23,497 nt of DNA from a virus. Below are positions 8,187 to 23,006 of this stretch, piece by piece; position 1 is the stretch's first letter, and each line of letters opens with the position of its first letter. The notes below the pieces were generated by a model that did not search any database, was not told where the DNA came from, and saw only the letters and a program-made list of their open reading frames with translations. The position numbers and the translations under genes were made by a program. The DNA lies in IMG/VR virus record IMGVR_UViG_3300032157_000045, positions 1 to 23,497 of that record; one strand, written 5' to 3'.

Positions 8187-9191
8187 ATGAAGATCGTTGC
8201 GGTGCAGATTCACGAGGCGGACGAGTTCGGGCAGGTGCGAGCACAGGTACAGTTCAAGGGCACGATGGAGGAGGCGCTGGACATCGTGCAGGAGCTCAAG
8301 GGGCTCTGCGGGCAAACTCAAGAGCAGAGGGAACTGGCTCGGCGCATGGCGGGAATGGACACGTTCCCTGGAACGCCGGGCGCTTTCTCTAGCCGCATGA
8401 GTTCTGACAGCACACCCGTGGGTCCCGTGATTCCTTCGGGTGGTGCGCCCAAGCCGGTGCCTCCGACGGCCACCGCTCCCGAGGTGAAGAGCACCGGGAC
8501 CCTCAGCGTGTCCCCCGCGGTCGGAGCTGCGGTCTCGGGTGCGTCCGTCTCTTCCGTCCAAGAGAAGGCCAAGCGCGCCCCGAGAGCTCCGAAGGCTTCC
8601 GGTCCCGAGGCCCTTACCCAAACCGCCGACCAGCCGGCGAAGGAGGAGGCACCCGCTGCCCCCACCAGCACCCCGGACACGCAAGAGAAGCAGCCCAACC
8701 TTCCGGGTGTCGCCGCCCCGGAGGCTCCGGGCCGCACCGTCGAGCGAATCAACAACGGGCAGTTCTGGATTCAGAGCTGGAAGGAGGGAGAGGTCTACTA
8801 CGCACAGATCGAGGTGGGGCAGGACCCGGCCGTCAGCGGACTGCAAGCCTCGGGAGCTACGTCCCTCGTCGCAATGGCAGAGGTCGCAGAGCTGGCGCGC
8901 AACGCCCTGGCCTCGAAGGCAACCCCGCCCGCGACGGAAGAGCTCGCGGGCTTCGAGCCGCCGACGGACGTGCCTCCTGCACTCCTCGTCGCACCGGGCT
9001 TCCGTGCCGTCATGGATTGGATGGTGAGTCCCGAGGGAGGAGGCTACAGTCTCACGGACGCAGCCAAGATCACGGCGCACTGCGTAGCCCTCCGTCCGAA
9101 GGTGTTGGCCATCTCGCGGATGGCCGGCGACATTGGGCAGCGTGTCTCCCGCACGCTGGAGCTCATCGCCATGGACCGGGCCAACACGTAG
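8187..9191 (+). CDS. Unknown protein with long disordered linker, 334 aa
   Basis: ATG 8187 has a strong AAGGAAGGA upstream. The product has a short N-terminal alpha/beta segment (residues 1-45), then a long low-complexity stretch rich in Pro, Ala, Ser, Thr and Lys (about 70-185). A compact C-terminal part follows (about 187-334), starting RTVERINNGQFWIQSW and including GEVYYAQIEVGQD. I recognise no family in either folded part. Its place between thyX and the polymerase gene suggests a replication accessory role, but this is only positional. The linker resembles tethers that join two binding modules. Confidence 0.65.
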   Translation: MKIVAVQIHEADEFGQVRAQVQFKGTMEEALDIVQELKGLCGQTQEQRELARRMAGMDTFPGTPGAFSSRMSSDSTPVGPVIPSGGAPKPVPPTATAPEVKSTGTLSVSPAVGAAVSGASVSSVQEKAKRAPRAPKASGPEALTQTADQPAKEEAPAAPTSTPDTQEKQPNLPGVAAPEAPGRTVERINNGQFWIQSWKEGEVYYAQIEVGQDPAVSGLQASGATSLVAMAEVAELARNALASKATPPATEELAGFEPPTDVPPALLVAPGFRAVMDWMVSPEGGGYSLTDAAKITAHCVALRPKVLAISRMAGDIGQRVSRTLELIAMDRANT

Positions 9192-9192
9192 C

Positions 9193-12100
9193 ATGCACAC
9201 TCTCCCGCTCTACCCCACCGCGTCCCTCGCCGTAGAGAACCTCCAACCCATCCCCCTCGACAAGAGCTGTACACGCTGCGCTCTCAGTACGGGGGTACGC
9301 ACCGTGTGCATGGCTGCGGAGCTCTCGGGTCCCACCAACGGGCCGACGCTCCTTGTGGTGGGGGAAGGGCCGGGAGAGAACGAGGACCGCCAGGGCAGGC
9401 CCTTTGTGGGCGCTTCGGGCACCGTTCTTCGCGGTGCCCTCGGGCTCTGGAAGGGTCCGGTCGTGATCGAGAACGCCCTGCGCTGTGCCCCTGGCTCCCG
9501 GGAGATCAAGCCCTCCTACATCGAAGCCTGTCGGCCCTACCTCGCAGGCACCTTCCAAGAGACCAAGCCCGCAAGGATTCTCGCGCTCGGGGCGACGGCG
9601 GCAACCGCGGTGCTTGGCCACGGAATCTCACCCTTCAGCACCCGGAAGGGCTACGGGTACACGGCCTCGGGGGTGCCGGTGTTCTTTGTGCTGCACCCTG
9701 CCGCTGCCCTCCGGAACCGGTTCGTGCGGTCCTGGTTCGACGCGGATATCAAGTGGGCGCTGACGGCTTCCCCTCCCATGCCACCGCCCACAGGTGGCAC
9801 CGTATATATCGTCACGACACCCGAGGAGTCCCTTGCTGCCTGTCAGGAGATGCGCACCGCGGAGTGGGCCTCCCTCGACGTGGAGACCTTCGGGATCGTG
9901 CACGAGCCGGGCTACCACCTGTTGGGACTCTCCCTCACGGCACGCCAAGAGTCGGAGGAGGGTGTTGCGTACGTGTGGGGTCGCGCGGAGCTCGAAGACT
10001 CTGCCGTGAACGCACCGCTCAAGGCGTACCTGCAAGACCCCCGGGCGAAGAAGATCGGGTCGAACGCCAAGTACGACGCCCATGCGATCGAGTACGGGCT
10101 GGGCGTGCGGGTGCGCGGTTGGGCTGGAGACGTGCGCCTCTGGCGGAAGCTCCTCCAGGCAGATGCACACGCAGACCTGGAGACGATGCAGTACCTCGTC
10201 GGCATGGGAGGGGGGAAGGCTGACATCGAACCGTTGATCGACAGTGCCAAGAAGAACCTTCAGAAGCTCTCCCTCCAATACTCCAAGGGGAAGCTCTCCC
10301 TCGAAGCCGTCCAGATCGCACCTTCGGTGCGCTGCATGGCGATGAGCGACGCCGACGTAGACCGCATGCTCCGCGCGATTCACCACGGCACCGGTCCCAA
10401 GACCTACGCCTTCGCGGCGCTGCCGAACGACCTACGCAACAGCTACAACGCGAGGGACACCGTCTCGACCGCACGCCTCGGGCGCAAGCTAGAGAGCGAG
10501 CTTCGCGCGAACCCCGAGCTCTGGGGGGTTTGGCAGAACGTAGTGGCCCCGCTCTCTCACGCGGTGGAGCGGATGGAGTGGAACGGCATCGGGGTCAGCA
10601 AGCCTGCGATCTACCAGCTCCAAGCCGCCATGGCTGCCAAAGAAGCAGAACTCAGCGCACGCCTGAAGCCCTACGGTGACCTCAACCCCAACAGCTCGAA
10701 GGACGTGGCAGAGCTGGTGTACGGGCAGCTCAACACTCCTGTCACGCACGTGACGCCGGGAGGCAAGCCCTCGACGGCCGCGGAGGTACTGGAGGGCATC
10801 GACCATCCGGTGGTGAAAGACCTCATCGCGTACCGCCAGTGCACGAAGTTCAAGAGCCAGTACGCCGACGGGATGGAGTTCTACATCCGTTCGGACGGAC
10901 GCATCCACCCGAGCATCTTGCTCGACGGGACGGAGTGTATGCCTGCCGGGGAGCTCGTGCTGACAGCGAGGGGCTACCTTCCTGTGGAGCAGGTGCGGGT
11001 GGGGGACACCGTGCTCACGCATGAAGGACGCCCTCGGAAGGTCGTTGAGCGCAGTGAGTTCGCTCCGGCTCCCATCTATCACGTGGTGCTCTCGAACGGC
11101 ACACACCTGCGGACCACGGCCAACCACCAGTATCGTGCGGGTGCAGGGTGGCAACGTGCGGATAGCCTGAAGGTGGGAACCTCAGTTGCGGTTCACTCGG
11201 GCGGGGAAGTGTGGGAGACCATAGATGGGTGGGCACCGTTCGAGGTCTCTACCTGGGGGCGCGTTCGGAATGCCCATACGGGCCACGTCCTAACCCTCCA
11301 GTCCAAGGGTCGTTGGGGCCACCTGAAGGTCACGCTCAAGCGTGGAGGAGCGCGTACGAGGGGCGCAGACCGTCGTGACTTTGGGGTGCACCGGCTAGTC
11401 TTGGAGACGTTCGCTCCCGAGAGGACAGGCCCCATTGCCATGCACCTCGACGGGTACGCCTGGAACAACACCCTAGAGAACTTGGCTTGGGGCGATCACC
11501 GGACCAACTTCGCGGACGCACGGAAGCACGGAAGCATGTCGCACCGGCATGCAGGACACTCGCAGGTAGCCCTGACGCCGGCCGTGGCCGATGCCATTCG
11601 GGCCACGCCTCTGGCAGTCGCGAGCAACCAAGCGCTTGCCGACAGGTTTGGAGTGAGCCGGGCGCTGGTTCGGGGTGTTCGGAACGGCACGCGGTGGCAG
11701 CCTGAAGCTCATGTTGCGGGGAAGCGTGCCTCCTTCGGGGAGGCTACGGTGGTGCTCGTGGAGGTGCTACCTGCCGCTCCGACCTACGGGCTCACGGTTG
11801 AAGAGGACGCCAGTCATGTGACGGGAGGGATCGTCACACACAACACTGGGCGCCCCTCCTCCCGTGAGCCCAACCTGATGAACATCCCGAGGCCCAAGAC
11901 CGCAGAGGGCAAGATGTGCCGGGACATCTTCGTGGCACCTCCCGGGCATCTGCTTCTGGAGGGGGACTACTCGCAGATCGAGCTTCGGGTAGCGGCGATG
12001 CTCTCGCAGGACCCGGCGATGATCGAGGTGTTCCGAGAGGCTCACCGCGCCCCGGAGGAGGAAAAGGGCAAGTACGACTTTCACCTCCAGACCGCCAAGA

Positions 12101-12711
12101 TGGTGGCCCCGGTGTTGGGCTACAAGCCGGAGGACATCACGAAGGAGCACCCCCTACGAGACCAAGCGAAGATCATCAACTTCGGTGTCCTCTACGGGAA
12201 GGTTGCCGCGGGCTTGAGCGCGGAGCTCGGTATCAGCAAGGCGAAAGCTCAGGCCCTCATCGACGCCATCTTCGGGAAGTTCAAACGCCTGCACCAATGG
12301 ATTCAAGAGTCCCTCGCCTTCGCACGGCGCACGGGGTACTGCCGGACGTGGTGGGCCGGGAGTGACGCCCGTATTCGCCCGCTCTGGCGTGTAGGGGACG
12401 CAGACGAAGAGGCACGCTCGAACGCCGAACGCTCCTCGTGGAACACGCGCATCCAAGGGACCGCGACGGAGTTCACCAACGCGAGCCTGGGAGCCTTCCA
12501 GCGGTGGTTGGACGAAGACGGTATTCCGGCCCGGCTCGTGCTCACCGTCTACGACTCCATCCTTGTGGAGGTGCGGGAGCAGGATGTGGCAGAGGTGGCC
12601 TGGAACCTCAAGCGCATCATGTGCGGGTGGGAGAGCTGGGGTGTGCCGGTCGAGGCGGAGTTCAAGGTGGGCGCTGCATGGGGCTCGATGCAGGGCTTGA
12701 AAGTTTCCTGA
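9193..12711 (+). CDS. Uracil-DNA glycosylase/PolA-type DNA polymerase fusion with intein
   Basis: The precursor is 1172 residues, about 869 after splicing. Residues 1-190 form a family-4 uracil-DNA glycosylase: Cys26/29/98/113 fit a 4Fe-4S site, with GEGPGENED at 57-65, GRPFVGASG and HPAAALRN at 168-175. A DnaQ-like 3'-5' exonuclease follows, with Asp229/Glu231 in LDVETFG, SNAKYDAHAIE and YNARDTVSTARL. The family A polymerase has TGRPSS...PNLMNIP, motif A DYSQIELR (Asp925), motif B RDQAKIINFGVLYG and motif C VYDS (Asp1121). An intein splits the protein at residues 582-884, just before TGRPSS. ATG 9193 follows the previous stop by one base with a weak binding site. UDG-like domains fused to phage PolA enzymes are known from SPO1-type phages. 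Confidence 0.93.
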   Translation: MHTLPLYPTASLAVENLQPIPLDKSCTRCALSTGVRTVCMAAELSGPTNGPTLLVVGEGPGENEDRQGRPFVGASGTVLRGALGLWKGPVVIENALRCAPGSREIKPSYIEACRPYLAGTFQETKPARILALGATAATAVLGHGISPFSTRKGYGYTASGVPVFFVLHPAAALRNRFVRSWFDADIKWALTASPPMPPPTGGTVYIVTTPEESLAACQEMRTAEWASLDVETFGIVHEPGYHLLGLSLTARQESEEGVAYVWGRAELEDSAVNAPLKAYLQDPRAKKIGSNAKYDAHAIEYGLGVRVRGWAGDVRLWRKLLQADAHADLETMQYLVGMGGGKADIEPLIDSAKKNLQKLSLQYSKGKLSLEAVQIAPSVRCMAMSDADVDRMLRAIHHGTGPKTYAFAALPNDLRNSYNARDTVSTARLGRKLESELRANPELWGVWQNVVAPLSHAVERMEWNGIGVSKPAIYQLQAAMAAKEAELSARLKPYGDLNPNSSKDVAELVYGQLNTPVTHVTPGGKPSTAAEVLEGIDHPVVKDLIAYRQCTKFKSQYADGMEFYIRSDGRIHPSILLDGTECMPAGELVLTARGYLPVEQVRVGDTVLTHEGRPRKVVERSEFAPAPIYHVVLSNGTHLRTTANHQYRAGAGWQRADSLKVGTSVAVHSGGEVWETIDGWAPFEVSTWGRVRNAHTGHVLTLQSKGRWGHLKVTLKRGGARTRGADRRDFGVHRLVLETFAPERTGPIAMHLDGYAWNNTLENLAWGDHRTNFADARKHGSMSHRHAGHSQVALTPAVADAIRATPLAVASNQALADRFGVSRALVRGVRNGTRWQPEAHVAGKRASFGEATVVLVEVLPAAPTYGLTVEEDASHVTGGIVTHNTGRPSSREPNLMNIPRPKTAEGKMCRDIFVAPPGHLLLEGDYSQIELRVAAMLSQDPAMIEVFREAHRAPEEEKGKYDFHLQTAKMVAPVLGYKPEDITKEHPLRDQAKIINFGVLYGKVAAGLSAELGISKAKAQALIDAIFGKFKRLHQWIQESLAFARRTGYCRTWWAGSDARIRPLWRVGDADEEARSNAERSSWNTRIQGTATEFTNASLGAFQRWLDEDGIPARLVLTVYDSILVEVREQDVAEVAWNLKRIMCGWESWGVPVEAEFKVGAAWGSMQGLKVS
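10936..11844 (+). mobile_element. Intein with NUMOD4/HNH homing endonuclease, in the polymerase gene
   Basis: This 303-residue in-frame insertion has all splicing hallmarks. It begins with Cys (CMPAGELVLT), has block B TTANHQY, block F YGLTVEEDASHVTGGIV and ends in THN, with Thr as the first C-extein residue. Between the splicing blocks sit a NUMOD4-like motif (IDGWAPFEVSTWGRVRNA, about 11221-11274) and an HNH segment (VHRLVLETFAP ... MHLDGYAWNNTLENLAWGDH, about 11386-11505). A helix-turn-helix (NQALADRFGVSRALVRG) follows and probably adds DNA recognition. The insertion point splits the conserved TGRxSS region of family A polymerases, so activity requires splicing. The HNH residues look intact, so homing may be active. 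Confidence 0.92.
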
Positions 12712-13308: not shown

Positions 13309-14172
13309 ATGACAAGCACAAGCAACCTCGTTCGCTACGGAAGCTACACTCTCGAAGCCGCTACGGAGGACGACGCCAAGGTGAAGGCTGCCTCCGGGAA
13401 CTCCTTCATGGAGCTCATCGAGGGGGAGAACGTCGTCCGCATCCTGCCCCCACCGGAGGGTGCTACCAGTCCCTTCCGGGTGACCTCCATGCACTACATC
13501 GACCCCATTCCCGGGAGCGATCGCAAGATCGTCTTCGCCTGCCCACGGGTGGAGGGTGTGGGGATCTGCCCAGCCTGCGCGAAGGCCGAAGAGCTTGGCC
13601 GCTCTCCGGACCCCGGCCAGCGCGAGCGCGCGAAGGATCTTGCGCACAGTCTGCGCATCTACGCCAACGTGCTGGACCGCTCCCAGCCCGATGTCGGACC
13701 CAAGGTGCTGGGCTTCGGGAAGCAGATTCAGATGCAGCTCCGCGCCATTCGGGCCAGCCCTCGCTTGGGTGGGGACTTCACGGATCCCACCTCCAAGGGC
13801 TTCGACATCATCATCACGCGCACGGGCACGGGCAGGCAGGACACCAAGTACAACGTGGCCGCGGATCGCCAGTGCTCTCCGCTGGCTGACTCCGACGAGG
13901 GGATCGTGGCCATTCTCGACCTGCGGCACGACCTCAACGCGCTTGTGGACACCGTGCCTCCGGAAGAGCTCGTCGCGTACTTCAACTCCGCGCGCTCTTC
14001 TCTTGCCTCGGGAGCTCGTCCTATGGGGCTCGCCAAGCCTCCAGCCCCTTCGCAGATGGCGGCTCCCGCAGGACCGCGCCTCGGTTCGACGGTGATGCAG
14101 GGTGCAGCACAGCCCGTCACCAACGTCTCCACCGCTCCGAACCCGCTGGCTCCGAACTACCCTCGGGGCTGA
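13309..14172 (+). CDS. gp32-like single-stranded DNA-binding protein
   Basis: The 287-residue product resembles T4 gp32, which coats ssDNA during replication, recombination and repair. Visible features are FMELIEGENVVRILPPP (33-49) and a zinc site with His62, Cys78, Cys87 and Cys90, nearly the same spacing as His64/Cys77/Cys87/Cys90 of T4 gp32. The OB-fold region continues with SLRIYANVLDRS and DIIITRTGTGRQDTKY. The last 60 residues are Pro/Ala-rich (KPPAPSQMAAPAGP) and not acidic, unlike the usual gp32 tail. The start is ATG 13309 with AAGGA upstream. The gene lies between the possible mediator and recA, as expected for a T4-like recombination set. Confidence 0.82.
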   Translation: MTSTSNLVRYGSYTLEAATEDDAKVKAASGNSFMELIEGENVVRILPPPEGATSPFRVTSMHYIDPIPGSDRKIVFACPRVEGVGICPACAKAEELGRSPDPGQRERAKDLAHSLRIYANVLDRSQPDVGPKVLGFGKQIQMQLRAIRASPRLGGDFTDPTSKGFDIIITRTGTGRQDTKYNVAADRQCSPLADSDEGIVAILDLRHDLNALVDTVPPEELVAYFNSARSSLASGARPMGLAKPPAPSQMAAPAGPRLGSTVMQGAAQPVTNVSTAPNPLAPNYPRG

Positions 14173-14214
14173 GAGTCTCATCCCTCTAGATGGCGGGTGT
14201 AAGCCCTGCGTAAC

Positions 14215-14230
14215 GCCCCTGGAGAGGGGC
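14215..14230 (+). other. Perfect 6-bp GC hairpin with GGAG loop
   Basis: GCCCCT pairs fully with AGGGGC around the loop GGAG, 43 bases after the gp32-like stop. No T-run follows, so it is not a standard intrinsic terminator, though it could block exonucleases or pause RNA polymerase. Confidence 0.5.
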
Positions 14231-14265
14231 TGGCTGGCTATGTGAGCGTAGGCCGCCTGATAAGA

Positions 14266-14297
14266 CACCGTGCCCGTCCGGTGAGCCAAGAGACGGG
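14266..14297 (+). other. Predicted H-type pseudoknot
   Basis: Stem 1 is CACCG (14266-14270) with CGGTG (14279-14283). Its loop contains CCCGTC (14273-14278), which pairs perfectly with GACGGG (14292-14297) as stem 2. Loop 1 is 2 bases and loop 3 is 8 bases, which is sterically allowed for 5- and 6-bp stems. All eleven pairs are Watson-Crick. Confidence 0.5.
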
Positions 14298-14382
14298 AGC
14301 GGGGGTGTTAGGACCCTGCTGAGCTGTGCGTTCCCTTCGCTTCACCCTGTAGCGGAGCCTAGTCCTCACACAGCTCAACGGG

Positions 14383-14401
14383 CTGAGGTTCGAAGCCTCA
14401 G
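14383..14401 (+). other. tRNA T-arm-like hairpin
   Basis: CTGAGG pairs with CCTCAG around the 7-base loop TTCGAAG, which fits the tRNA T-loop pattern. It is followed by GACTCCC-A-CC, resembling a 3' acceptor strand and discriminator. No canonical 5' half was found, so a tRNA gene is not called. Confidence 0.4.
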
Positions 14402-14519
14402 ACTCCCACCGGAGCCCTTCGCGAAGTGTAAGCGGTAAGGCAACAGAGCTATCAACCTGTGCAGCGGATCCACCCTGCACGGCTGGCTCACACGCCGAAC
14501 GCAGGACCGTCGTGAAGGG

Positions 14520-14539
14520 CTCCTCTACGCACGGAGGAG
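14520..14539 (+). promoter_or_regulatory. Hairpin covering the recA ribosome binding site
   Basis: CTCCTC (14520-14525) pairs with GAGGAG (14534-14539) around an 8-base loop. The 3' arm is the core of the strong GGAGGAGG (14533-14540) that precedes the recA ATG at 14546 by five bases. Folding would hide the site; opening, perhaps by upstream pairing, would allow translation. Confidence 0.5.
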
Positions 14540-14545
14540 GTTCTC

Positions 14546-15562
14546 ATGGCAGCCAAGGTACTCGACTTCCCAACGATGCCCACAACCCGTAAGAACGCGC
14601 TGGAGACGGCGCTTGCGGAGGTGCGCAAGAAGTTCGGACGGGGAGCTCTGCAGTGCTTGGGTCCGGAGGTGGACGGGCCGAGGGAGCCCGTGCCTGTGAT
14701 TCCCACTGGCTCTATCGCGCTGGACAGGGCTACCGGGTGCGGTGGTTACCCTCGTGGTCGAGTCGTGGAAGTGTATGGGATGGAGTCCAGCGGGAAGACC
14801 ACGCTCGCTCTGCATGCCGTTGCAGAGGTTCAGCGCAGTGGTGGCATCGCTGCCTTCGTGGACGTGGAACACGCCCTCGACACGAAGTACACCACTGCGC
14901 TTGGTGTCTCTGTTCCAGACCTCTTGATCTCCCAGCCGGACACTGGAGAGCAGGCCCTCGGGATCGTCGAGCACCTTGTGTGCTCCGGTGCTGTCGACCT
15001 CATCGTGATCGACTCCGTGGCCGCGCTGGTGCCCAAGGCAGAGCTCGATGGGGAGATGGGCGACGCGCACATGGGGTTGCACGCTCGCCTCATGTCGCAA
15101 GCCCTTCGCAAGCTCACCGGGCTCTCCCACAGGAACAACGTCACGCTGCTCTTCATCAACCAGATTCGGATGAAGATCGGGGTACTGTTCGGGAACCCGG
15201 AGACCACGACGGGAGGCAACGCCTTGAAGTTCTACGCGAGCCTTCGCCTCCATGTCGGGCGTCGACAGGCCATCAAGAACGGTGAAGAGGTGGTCGGTAG
15301 CCACACCGTCGTGAAGGTGCTGAAGAACAAGATGGCTCCTCCCTTCCGGGAGGCAGAGTTCGAGGTGCGCTTCGGGCAGGGCATCGACCGGTACGGGGAT
15401 GCGCTCAACGTGGGCTTGGAGCTAGGGCTCATCGAGAAGTCCGGGAACTGGTGGAGCTTTGGGGATGCTCGCCTAGGGCAAGGGAGGGACGCCGCTCGCG
15501 AGGTGCTCTCCTCCAACCCGGAGCTCTTCGCGCAGTTGCTCGCTGCCCTTCGAGCCAAGTGA
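14546..15562 (+). CDS. recA: RecA recombinase, bacterial type
   Basis: The 338-residue product is a full-length RecA, close to the 353 of E. coli. It polymerises on ssDNA and drives homologous pairing with ATP. Visible motifs are Walker A GMESSGKT (78-85), FVDVEHALD with the catalytic Glu, Walker [12 protein letters not shown], loop L1 [18 protein letters not shown], and loop L2 [20 protein letters not shown] with the conserved Gly-Gly-Asn-Ala-Leu-Lys-Phe-Tyr after it. The C-terminal domain is present but lacks a strongly acidic tail. It is of bacterial type rather than UvsX type even though its neighbours look T4-like. Its translation may be controlled by the hairpin just upstream. Its TGA shares one base with the next ATG. 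Confidence 0.96.
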
Positions 15563-15920: not shown

Positions 15921-17041
15921 CCCTGTACTTCGTCGGCGACGTTCATCTAGGGAACCATCGCACGCTAGGGGGTTCGGTGGTGGCCGGAGTCAACCAGCGC
16001 GCACAGCAGACGCTCAACGTGATTCGTGCTGCTAAGGCGCACGCTTGTCGCCACGAAGAGGAGACGAACCTCTTCGTGTTGGGGGATCTCTTCGACACGT
16101 CGAACCCCACTCCGCAGCTCGTGACGGCAGCCATGGAAGCGCTCTGGCCGAAGTCTCATCCCCTCTCAGTACACCTGCTCGCGGGGAACCATGATCTCGT
16201 CTCGGATGAGGACGGAGATCATGCCCTTGGCCCATTCGTCTTCGTGCCACGAATGGACGTGTACGAGGCGCCGTGCGCTCGGGACTTTGGGGCGGATGAG
16301 GCCACCGTGCTCCTTGTTCCTTACCGCTCTGGGCACGCCAAGGAGTGGCTCCCGGGCGCACTGGTGGAGCTCTTGAAGGGCTACCCCTCGCACGGGCGTA
16401 GGCTTCTCTTGCTGCACCTGGGGATCCACGACGCGGCGATGCGGGCTGCTCTTCCTTGGACGAAGGATGCAGCGGACGCTGTCTCCATCGAGCAGCTACA
16501 AGACCTCTGCGCCGCGCACGGGATCGAGAGTGTCGTTGCGGGGAACTGGCACGCTCGGAAGCGCTGGCGCACCTCCTCCCTTGACGTGTTGCAGGTAGGG
16601 GCTCTTGTCCCAACCGGTTGGGACAACCCTGGGCTTCGTGGCTTGTACGGCACGGTTGCTTCGTTTGGTCCGGGTGGGCTCTCAGTGTATGAGCTCCCCG
16701 GTCCACGCTTCGTGACCGTGACGGAGGCAGGAGCCCTCAACAACATACTCGACGAGGCCGACGAGCAGGACTTGCTGTACGTGCGCTGGAAGACTGCACC
16801 CTCGAACGTCGAGGGTGTGACGGCTCACCTTCGAGAGTTGAGGGAGGGTGGGATCATCGCGGGCTTCACCGTGCAGATCGAGCAGGAGGCCCTTCGCGCC
16901 CAAGCACAGGCGGCTTCGCAACGGGCTCGGAGCGCGGAGACCCTCCAGGAAGCTCTCGCACACTACGTGGCCGGGGTTGCTCTGGAGGAGGGAATTGACC
17001 GGGCCGAAGTTCTCGACCGTGCACGGGAGTACCTTGGATGA
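15917..17041 (+). CDS. SbcD/Mre11-type nuclease subunit (T4 gp47-like)
   Basis: The 374-residue product is a calcineurin-like metallophosphoesterase, the nuclease partner of an SbcC-type ATPase. It processes DNA ends for recombination. Metal-binding motifs are in order: GDVHLG (Asp8, His10), GDLFD (Asp57), GNHD (90-93), LLHLGIHD (His167) and GNWHARK (209-215), which replaces the usual GxxH. GTG 15917 overlaps the previous stop and has AGGAGAG seven bases upstream. The gene order with the SbcC/gp46-like gene 190 bases downstream supports the call. The C-terminal third, rich in Ala and Glu, probably docks onto the SbcC coiled coil. Confidence 0.88.
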   Translation: MTLYFVGDVHLGNHRTLGGSVVAGVNQRAQQTLNVIRAAKAHACRHEEETNLFVLGDLFDTSNPTPQLVTAAMEALWPKSHPLSVHLLAGNHDLVSDEDGDHALGPFVFVPRMDVYEAPCARDFGADEATVLLVPYRSGHAKEWLPGALVELLKGYPSHGRRLLLLHLGIHDAAMRAALPWTKDAADAVSIEQLQDLCAAHGIESVVAGNWHARKRWRTSSLDVLQVGALVPTGWDNPGLRGLYGTVASFGPGGLSVYELPGPRFVTVTEAGALNNILDEADEQDLLYVRWKTAPSNVEGVTAHLRELREGGIIAGFTVQIEQEALRAQAQAASQRARSAETLQEALAHYVAGVALEEGIDRAEVLDRAREYLG

Positions 17042-18935: not shown

Positions 18936-19856
18936 ATGGCAACAGCGGAAGCAACGAAGAGCAAGCGGGAACGTGGTGGGCTCCTAGAGAGCTTGCCCCG
19001 GTCCAACCTGTACAACGCAGACCCGGACAACCTTGTGATCCAAGGCTTGGACACGGTGGCCGACGAGAACACGGTGGAGGGCATCCTCTCCCACAAGGAG
19101 CGGAACGACCTCCCGGTGCCTGTGGAGCTCATCGAGTCCGTCTACACGCACGGTGTGCTCAAGCCCGTCGAGGTGTGCCGTCAAGAAGACGCCCTCGTTG
19201 TGGTGGAGGGACGCGACCGCGTGCGTGCATGCCGCGAGGCGAACAAGCGGCTGCGGAAGGAAGAGAAGGAGCTCCACCGGGTTCCGATCATCTTCCGCAA
19301 GGGAGACCAGCGCTACCTCTACGAGCTCTCCTTGATCGGGAACCTGCGCTTCAAGGAGGACTCGCCCCTCACGATCGCGGCCATGACGGAGCGCCTCATC
19401 ACGGTGTTGGGCGCTACAGAGCAGGAAGCCGCCAGCGCGTACCAAGTTACCGTCCAGACCATCAAGGCACGGCGCGCGCTGCTCACGCTCCCGACCAAGA
19501 TTCAGAGGGCCGTCGATGCAGGGAAGATCGCGGCCACTTCAGCAGCTCGCCTCGCGGCCATCGGCGACTCGGAAAAGCAGCTCGCAGCCTTCGACGAGCT
19601 CTTGGCCAAGGGAGGCCCGATCTCTCGCGGCGACGTGGACACGAAGGTGGGCAAGACGAAGGGCACCAAGGGCGCCGACGAAAAGCCGCCTCGTTCTCGT
19701 CGGGTGCTCAACAAGCTCCTGAAGGGGCAGGACGCTGGTAAGATCGCGCTCAACACGGACGTGTACAACACCCTGCGTTGGGTGCTCGGGAAGGTGAGCT
19801 CTCGGGCGATCGAGGGACTCGGGCCCGCGCTTCGCGTCCTGAAGTTGGAGGAGTAG
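18936..19856 (+). CDS. ParB-like protein with nuclease-type N-domain and HTH
   Basis: The 306-residue product has an N-terminal ParB/Spo0J-like domain (about 55-150) with ALVVVEGRDRVRACREANKR (86-105), corresponding to the 'GxRRxxA' motif of the family. A KorB/ParB-type helix-turn-helix follows at about 155-185 (ATEQEAASAYQVTVQTIKARRALL). The C-terminal part is Lys/Gly-rich then helical. ParB proteins bind specific DNA and may be CTPases; in phages many act as regulators rather than in partition, and no ParA gene is nearby. ATG 18936 has GGAGG at 18923-18927. The next gene starts at the base after the stop. Confidence 0.78.
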   Translation: MATAEATKSKRERGGLLESLPRSNLYNADPDNLVIQGLDTVADENTVEGILSHKERNDLPVPVELIESVYTHGVLKPVEVCRQEDALVVVEGRDRVRACREANKRLRKEEKELHRVPIIFRKGDQRYLYELSLIGNLRFKEDSPLTIAAMTERLITVLGATEQEAASAYQVTVQTIKARRALLTLPTKIQRAVDAGKIAATSAARLAAIGDSEKQLAAFDELLAKGGPISRGDVDTKVGKTKGTKGADEKPPRSRRVLNKLLKGQDAGKIALNTDVYNTLRWVLGKVSSRAIEGLGPALRVLKLEE

Positions 19857-20753: not shown

Positions 20754-21440
20754 ATGGAGCTCATCAATCCCGCCCTCTCCAAGCTCAAGCGCCCTCTCTC
20801 GAAGCTGAAGCCCGATCCCACCAACGTGCGTGCGCACGACGCGAGGAGCATCGAGGCCATCAAGACGAGCCTCACGAAGTACGGGCAGCAGAAGCCCATC
20901 GTGATCGTGCCCGATGGCACGGTGGCCGCGGGGAACGGCACGCTCGAAGCGGCCAAGCAACTCGGGTGGACCCACCTCGCGGTGGTGGTCTTCTCCGGTA
21001 CGCTGGAGCAAGCACGCGCCTTCGCCGTCGCAGACAACCGCACCGCGGAGCTCTCCTCGTGGGACGACCACAAGCTGGCTGAAGCGATGGACGAGCTCAC
21101 CAAGCAAGGGATCGAGGTCGGGGACCTGGGCTTCAACAACGCAGAGATGGAGGCGCTCATTGCGCGTACAGCGGTGGACCTCGACAAGCCCATCGAAAAG
21201 GCACCACTCGGAAAGACTCCGATCGAAGCGGCAGAGGCGTACCTGAACAACGAGATCAAACAGGTGGTGCTGTACCTGCCAGGGCATCAGTTCGAGCCTG
21301 TGCTCAACGCCTTCCAGGACTACGCCAAGCGGCACGGGTTGATGAGCAACACGGAGGTCGTGCTGCACCTGCTCGGGATGCACCCCTTTCCAGCTCCGGC
21401 CGTGGCCCCGTCCGCGCCCACTCCCGCTTCCCATGGATGA
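20754..21440 (+). CDS. ParB N-terminal domain protein, modification-associated type
   Basis: The 228-residue product begins with a ParB/RepB-like domain: LKPDPTNVRAHDARSIEAIK (residues 18-37), QQKPIVIVPDGTVAAGNGTL (44-63), and AVADNRTAELSSWDDHKLAEA. The A-D-N-R..L..W(D) pattern is typical of ParB domains that sit beside or are fused to phage DNA adenine methyltransferases. There is no helix-turn-helix like that of the ParB-like protein at 18936. The C-terminus is Pro/Ala-rich and low complexity. The ATG has only a weak GGG upstream. It opens the putative DNA-modification cluster. Confidence 0.75.
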   Translation: MELINPALSKLKRPLSKLKPDPTNVRAHDARSIEAIKTSLTKYGQQKPIVIVPDGTVAAGNGTLEAAKQLGWTHLAVVVFSGTLEQARAFAVADNRTAELSSWDDHKLAEAMDELTKQGIEVGDLGFNNAEMEALIARTAVDLDKPIEKAPLGKTPIEAAEAYLNNEIKQVVLYLPGHQFEPVLNAFQDYAKRHGLMSNTEVVLHLLGMHPFPAPAVAPSAPTPASHG

Positions 21441-22305
21441 GATCCGTCTTCCCTCGTTCCTTCCCCTCGATCCCGTGCGTAACCTGCTTAAGGTTACGCA
21501 CGCACAGGCAGAGCCCACCTACCGCCGGGTGCAGAAGTCCACGCTCATCCTTGGTCCGTCCGGCCCTCTCGGGTTGTACTTTCACCCGGAGGAGTCGGTA
21601 GAAGAGCTCCGGCTCGCGCTGAAGGGCATCTCGTACTCAACCAGCGCCCGGACACGAGGACTCACCACACACTCCAGGACGTTCGGGAACGCTCCTCGAA
21701 TCCCAATCCGAGCGGACTACTGCCACTGTGCCGCACTCGCTCGGGAGGATCCGCACGCGCACGGACTGCTCACTCAGTGGGCCGGCTACGCCTCCTCCTA
21801 CTTCGAGAAGGCATTCCCGCAGGAGCACACACGCCAGAGGGACCGGCTTGTGGGAGCGGTACGCCCCGAGTGGAGGCTCCCCGGAGACACCTTCACCTCC
21901 GGGATCATCAACGCCAACAACTACCTCGCGTACCACCTCGACACAGGAAACTTCCCAGACTCTTGGAGCGCCATGCTCGTGCTCCGGGAGTACACAGAAG
22001 GTGGTGAGCTGGTCGTTCCCGAGTGGGGCCTCACCTTCGAGTGCGCCGACCGGTCGATGCTCCTCTTCGACGGGAGCCGCTGGCTTCATGGCGTCGCCCC
22101 CATGCGACGGCTCAGCGAGGCCAAGAGCTACCGGTACTCCATCGTCTGGTACGCCCTGAAGTTCATGGCGAACTGCCTCTCACCGGAGGAGGAGCTCTTG
22201 CGCATTCGCACCAAGAAGACGGAGCGTGAGCGCGCACGCCTCGACCCGGTGGCCACCGCTGAACGCATCGGCCTCACGAAGGCGAAGAGAACCCCCACAC
22301 CATGA
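21433..22305 (+). CDS. 2OG-Fe(II) dioxygenase, TET/JBP-like
   Basis: The 290-residue product contains a double-stranded beta-helix dioxygenase core. The iron ligands are visible as YHLDTGNF (His168, Asp170) and WLHGVAP (His219), and Arg234 in SYRYSIVWY would bind 2-oxoglutarate. GGELVVPEWGL and LLFDG lie between them. The H-x-D-x-G-N spacing and the surrounding pattern are like phage proteins related to TET/JBP enzymes, which oxidise methyl groups on DNA bases. That relation is from memory of motifs and needs a profile search. It starts inside the previous gene (8-base overlap) and ends in an ATGA overlap with the FkbM gene. Substrate, base or protein, is unknown. Confidence 0.75.
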   Translation: MDEIRLPSFLPLDPVRNLLKVTHAQAEPTYRRVQKSTLILGPSGPLGLYFHPEESVEELRLALKGISYSTSARTRGLTTHSRTFGNAPRIPIRADYCHCAALAREDPHAHGLLTQWAGYASSYFEKAFPQEHTRQRDRLVGAVRPEWRLPGDTFTSGIINANNYLAYHLDTGNFPDSWSAMLVLREYTEGGELVVPEWGLTFECADRSMLLFDGSRWLHGVAPMRRLSEAKSYRYSIVWYALKFMANCLSPEEELLRIRTKKTERERARLDPVATAERIGLTKAKRTPTP

Positions 22306-23006
22306 GCAGCACTCCTCCGGCCCTCGACCTCGTGAAGGTGCGAGGGCTCTCCTTCTACACACGTCCCGGCTCCTCGGACATCAAGGCCATCAAGGAGGTC
22401 GTCGAGAAGCGCGCCTACGCTCGCAAGCACTTCCCGCTCGACGGCTTCCAGTGGATCGACCTCGGAGCCAACATCGGAGCGTTCACGGTGCTCCTCGCGG
22501 CACAGGGAGCGACCGTCCACGCCTACGAGCCCGACCCGGATAGCTTCGACCTCCTGAAGCAGAACGTCACCCTGAACGGCCTCGACCACCGGGTACACCT
22601 CCACCAAGCCGCCGTCGTGTGGGATGAGCGCACGGAGGTCACACTTCATGTGAACGGGCGCAAGAAAAACTTCTGGCGGAACTCCATCCTCAAGCCCTGG
22701 CAGGGAGGCTCCACCGTGCAGGTTCCTGCCGTCCATGTACGAGACGTTCTGCTCCCCGGAGCCGACGTGAAGATGGACGTAGAGGGCGCTGAGATGCCCC
22801 TGTTGGAGGCGCTGGAGACCCGTCCCGGGCGTCGTCTGGTGTTGGAGTGGTCCTTCGACGTGGACGCCTCCATCCCCCGCTTCAAGGCCATCGTGAAGAA
22901 GCTCCAAGGCTGGTACTCCTCCGTGGTCTATGGCCGCTTCGATGAGACCCGCCCGACGTGGCCCGCGGAGTGGTTCCCTCCGGCCAAGACGATCTGGTGC
23001 ACGTGA
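22302..23006 (+). CDS. FkbM-family SAM-dependent methyltransferase
   Basis: The 234-residue product has a class I methyltransferase fold: WIDLGANIGAFTVLLAA (51-67) as the SAM-binding motif I, HAYEPDPDSFDLLKQNV (73-89) with the acidic residue for ribose binding, and DVKMDVEGAE (the K-x-D-V-E-G-x-E signature of FkbM). FkbM enzymes usually O-methylate hydroxyl groups on sugars or polyketides. Placed between a dioxygenase and a DNA methyltransferase, it could methylate a hydroxyl introduced by the dioxygenase, but this is inference. ATG 22302 overlaps the previous stop; no strong binding site is seen. Confidence 0.82.
   Translation: MSSTPPALDLVKVRGLSFYTRPGSSDIKAIKEVVEKRAYARKHFPLDGFQWIDLGANIGAFTVLLAAQGATVHAYEPDPDSFDLLKQNVTLNGLDHRVHLHQAAVVWDERTEVTLHVNGRKKNFWRNSILKPWQGGSTVQVPAVHVRDVLLPGADVKMDVEGAEMPLLEALETRPGRRLVLEWSFDVDASIPRFKAIVKKLQGWYSSVVYGRFDETRPTWPAEWFPPAKTIWCT

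Follow-up and report, generated by a model that had tools for sequence, protein, structure and literature searches.

The window analyzed here (the whole stretch of DNA, 23,497 bases) constitutes an entire IMG/VR virus record. As neither end repeats nor completeness is reported in the record, the window is probably a fragment of a virus genome. It carries a replication and recombination block encoding a DnaB-like helicase, primase, thymidylate synthase, family A DNA polymerase, a gp32-like protein and RecA/UvsX, as well as SbcD- and SbcC-like proteins and a ParB-like protein (18936-19856, plus strand; matches to the ParB HTH and N-terminal domains). The polymerase gene (9133-12711, plus strand) encodes an N-terminal uracil-DNA-glycosylase-like domain (residues 70-198), a 3'-5' exonuclease and an apparent intein with an HNH/NUMOD4 endonuclease (about residues 600-904), and the N-terminal part of this polymerase is common to the IMG/VR loci L082-L087. 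Within the SbcD-like gene there is a perfect 16-bp palindrome, TCCCAACCGGTTGGGA (16608-16623), the longest in the contig at the scanned lengths. A Tet/JBP-like 2-oxoglutarate oxygenase gene (21433-22305, plus strand) adjoins an FkbM/Trm5-like methyltransferase gene (22302-23006, plus strand), and the pair may perhaps serve in base modification of the phage DNA. Among the matches listed, those closest to the RecA of the contig are bacterial RecA proteins of Anaeromyxobacter and other Deltaproteobacteria (up to 64% identity), which can be read as a hint of the host and of nothing beyond that.

The features at the junction of the gp32-like gene and recA are the following:

13309-14172, plus strand: gp32-like single-stranded DNA-binding protein, 287 aa (Pfam PF08804 gp32, E 4e-9; phrog_1192, E 2e-23)
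14173-14545, plus strand: noncoding gap from the gp32-like gene to recA, 373 nt
14533-14540, plus strand: strong recA Shine-Dalgarno sequence GGAGGAGG, 5 nt before the ATG, read from the sequence
14546-15562, plus strand: recA/UvsX-like recombinase, 338 aa (phrog_97, E 3e-84; 64% identity to an Anaeromyxobacter RecA)

Coding potential and known RNA classes in the gap

The original prediction placed a stretch without a gene at exactly these coordinates, the TGA of the gp32-like gene occupying 14170-14172 and the ATG of recA starting at 14546, and the analysis bears this out. With codon-usage scores derived from the genes of the contig itself, each of the six frames of the gap came out negative or close to zero, compared to 0.1 to 0.28 for most neighbouring genes. 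These scores alone are no proof that the gap is noncoding, since some likely small genes elsewhere on the contig also score near zero. The small ORFs of the gap had no match in Pfam, and phage proteins of the relatives, when aligned to the gap, gave nothing above noise and revealed no protein relic. A missed protein-coding gene is rejected by these three lines of evidence, and the 373-nt gap is taken as noncoding.

No known RNA family had been matched to the region initially, and the Rfam search proposed as a check was equally empty: with Rfam 15 no family reached its gathering score in the window, and permissive searches gave chance matches far below the cut-offs. Matches to a group II intron and to selenocysteine-tRNA were weak, also far below the cut-offs, and were discarded. 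ARAGORN detected no tRNA or tmRNA in the gap and the Rfam tRNA search gave none at E<=10; low-threshold ARAGORN matches are also found in 99-100% of shuffles. A tRNA-like reading of the gap, with a T-arm-like snippet at 14386-14400, a D-loop-like one at about 14430-14442 and a CTGATAA loop near 14257, was rejected because the Rfam tRNA search was empty at this E-value and the relaxed ARAGORN matches are noise. The D-loop-like 19-mer has one occurrence in IMG/VR, in an unrelated place without a tRNA. Of the findings named in advance as arguing against a new RNA, an Rfam match, a tRNA or tmRNA, and a missed coding region were thus not made.

Simple scans of the gap revealed no sigma-70-like promoter and no terminator, which is consistent with read-through from the gp32-like gene into recA. 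The same result speaks against a freestanding structured ncRNA, including a degenerate tRNA-like RNA. A noncoding gap in a compact phage contig and the snippets resembling a T arm and a D loop would suit such a molecule; however, known RNA classes are not matched even at permissive E-values, the relaxed tRNA matches are as common in shuffles, and the larger part of the gap lacks significant structure (see below). We consider a freestanding RNA highly unlikely. Of the two roles proposed originally, an unknown ncRNA or a leader controlling recA, it is the leader that survives, as an inference from the hairpin found just before the ribosome-binding site.

Comparison with related loci

Homologues of the gap were sought in collections from which near relatives were possibly left out by design. 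At the DNA level none was found in phages or plasmids, in the IMG/VR loci reached via RecA or the polymerase, or in 195 genomes from the phylum to which an Anaeromyxobacter genome belongs, where the matches were chance-looking and only about 18-53 nt long. An exact search for the T-arm pattern yielded no homologue either. The search for homologous regions upstream of recA, by which the original prediction was to be checked, thus found none, and distant relatives with the same gene order turned out to be nearly gapless: in loci L028, L035, L036/L043 and L076 (polymerase, small gene, gp32-like gene, recA) only about 0-57 bp separate the last two genes. The gp32-like proteins of these loci show only 21-25% identity, and the one of L035 was not recognized in the PHROGs scan. 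As judged from these comparisons, this phage or its close kin carries the gap as additional sequence and not as an ancestral recA leader; nor is the gap a conserved recA device, since the gaps of the same-order relatives are so short.

Two other sets of loci were considered and set aside. Gaps of 200-270 bp lie farther upstream in L002, L022, L032 and L037, are mutually alignable and probably contain a small gene rather than this RNA. Some of the other loci reached, L003 and L009 among them, resemble bacterial-type recA loci in which a CinA-like gene precedes recA. L002 and L022 are long, GC-rich phage contigs from IMG/VR in which recA directly follows a RuvC-like resolvase gene (L002:3430-3999 and L022:3382-3969), and L032 and L037 have a similar-sized gene at this position.

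Folding of the gap

The following elements were delineated by folding:

14173-14410, no strand assigned: 5' two thirds of the gap, 238 nt, fold not significantly beyond that of shuffles
14320-14377, plus strand: 9-bp stem of the original prediction, arms 14320-14328 and 14369-14377
14411-14523, plus strand: 113-nt rod-like hairpin, MFE -58.6 kcal/mol
14411-14424, plus strand: 5' arm of the closing helix, 14 bp, GGAGCCCTTCGCGA
14510-14523, plus strand: 3' arm of the closing helix, 14 bp, TCGTGAAGGGCTCC
14520-14539, plus strand: alternative hairpin CTCCTC (14520-14525)/GAGGAG (14534-14539) over the recA Shine-Dalgarno sequence

Folded as one piece, the gap reaches -168.9 kcal/mol (z about -2.9 on the plus and -2.7 on the minus strand against shuffles), and 5 of 125 gap-sized windows of the contig, coding ones among them, reach z <= -2.98. 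In a scan with 120-nt windows, the starts at 14401 and 14411 were the lowest of the 390 in the contig (z -4.3 and -5.05). The element itself, 14411-14523, has a z of -5.8 on the plus strand, none of 500 shuffles being equally stable, and of -5.0 on the minus strand, but its limits were set after the fold had been seen and the grid values of the scan are for this reason the fairer measure. The 238 nt before it have a z of -1.2 on the plus strand, with 19 of 200 shuffles as good, and of -1.8 on the minus strand. Clearly significant structure in the gap is limited to this one hairpin. The original prediction of a large structured RNA does not hold, because two thirds of the gap folds like shuffles, and the signal attributed to at least six convincing stems comes from a single element. 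Neither does the 9-bp stem that had been singled out stand out: its helix score of 23, calculated by hand, is below 25.4, the mean of the best helix in shuffled copies. The wider stretch around it (14314-14383) has a z of -3.3, with limits picked after the fact. The helix that does stand out had not been singled out.

This is the helix closing the 113-nt rod, with 14 uninterrupted base pairs (13 Watson-Crick pairs and one G-U). Inward of it, shorter helices with internal loops between them are predicted to lead to an apical loop near 14468-14472, and some 10 nt separate the 3' end of the rod from the Shine-Dalgarno sequence of recA that follows. An equally good helix occurs nowhere else in the contig and in 3 of 400 shuffles. 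That figure, about 1%, leaves some room for a chance stable inverted repeat without function, the gap being a relic or spacer (left by a lost gene, for instance) in a GC-rich genome; the lack of the gap in distant relatives and the shuffle-like folding of 238 of the 373 nt point the same way. Nevertheless, the hairpin window is the best of all those scanned in the contig and is placed exactly at the recA start, and neither Pfam nor the proteins of relatives disclosed a protein relic, so that we regard the absence of function as rather unlikely.

Because the fold signal is of similar strength on the minus strand, the element can equally well be described as an inverted repeat in the DNA, and a role at the DNA level is conceivable: as an operator, as a replication or partition site, or as the ends of a small mobile element (14-bp arms flanking 85 bp). 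The 5' arm holds most of a 10-bp palindrome, CTTCGCGAAG, and a ParB-like protein is encoded on the contig. However, the contig has palindromes of 10 bp or more in about 19 further places, there is no second copy of the repeat in it, and no target-site duplication is evident. A search for the arm-pair pattern in IMG/VR and the 195 genomes gave only scattered matches, none in a related context, those in IMG/VR being overlapped by open frames at least 131 codons long. A function as DNA appears to us quite improbable.

Possible roles of the hairpin and known systems

The reading we prefer, if tentatively and at less than even confidence, is that of one intercistronic cis-acting mRNA hairpin (14411-14523) that affects recA via translation or processing; it is favoured because the hairpin sits directly before the recA ribosome-binding site. 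Counting against it, the collections searched gave no homologue, and hence no covariation, in its support. One transcript would run from the gp32-like gene into recA, and the hairpin would be made as RNA. It would uncouple recA translation from that of gp32 and would set how often the recA ribosome-binding site opens, either by branch migration between the long helix and the Shine-Dalgarno hairpin or through whatever binds or cuts the rod.

The branch migration would involve bases 14520-14523, which are common to both structures: they belong to the outer 4 bp of the long helix and to the 6-7-bp hairpin over the Shine-Dalgarno sequence. On 14405-14545 the two arrangements are predicted to be nearly isoenergetic (-61.4 and -59.2 kcal/mol, a difference of 2.2 kcal/mol). 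Among the 18 gene starts checked, only that of recA has a Shine-Dalgarno sequence that pairs with 6 upstream bases. Such a 6-bp hairpin is found by chance in 2.7% of shuffles and in 4% of the 30-mers of the contig, and the predicted mean openness of the recA Shine-Dalgarno sequence equals that in shuffles (0.28 vs. 0.27); for these reasons the strand-exchange switch is offered as a hypothesis. Its most elaborate form, a two-state phage-specific element in which the exchange between the two hairpins would make recA (UvsX) translation respond to a signal, for example free gp32-like protein, as a recombination-control leader, seems to us very unlikely.

The unremarkable openness of the Shine-Dalgarno sequence favours RNA processing over a translational switch. 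The rod could be a processing or stability element in which RNase III of the host or another nuclease cuts the duplex, or it could protect the 3' end of the gp32 mRNA; separate gp32 and recA messages would result and recA translation would be affected only indirectly. A long uninterrupted duplex does sit in the intercistronic gap, and the 14-bp helix with the further helices of the rod provides the roughly one to two helical turns of duplex expected of an RNase III site between two cistrons. Intercistronic hairpins cut by RNase III occur in phages such as T7, which provides a precedent. Yet processing leaves the length of the 373-nt gap without explanation, and no homologue was found in the collections searched. 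We take it to be possible though somewhat unlikely.

With the preferred cis-acting hairpin, the claim concerning 373 nt is narrowed to a single testable hairpin of 113 nt. If confirmed, it would join the cis-acting RNA elements that set how much single-strand-binding protein a phage makes relative to recombinase, here in a phage group of which the collections searched contain no close relatives.

Like the T7-type RNase III sites, the predicted rod is a long duplex with imperfections, located between two genes that presumably share a message; unlike them, it has no conserved sequence. Helices over the ribosome-binding site are known from the T4 genes e, soc, 49 and I-TevI, and T4 gp32 and gp43 make use of leader structures (PMC3014915). 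As in those four genes and in Aeh1 mobE, a helix is predicted here over the Shine-Dalgarno sequence of a downstream phage gene (PMC3014915). In contrast to them, a far larger rod upstream is predicted to compete with the small hairpin, the openness of the site is not below chance, a late promoter was not identified and the gene is recA. The translational operators of T4 genes 32 and 43 are similar in that a leader structure precedes a phage gene of DNA replication or recombination (PMC3014915). Those operators, however, precede the gene of the regulator itself and serve autoregulation, whereas the element described here lies 3' of the gp32-like gene and before recA, and where the gene 32 operator comprises a pseudoknot and an A+U-rich stretch, the present element is GC-rich.
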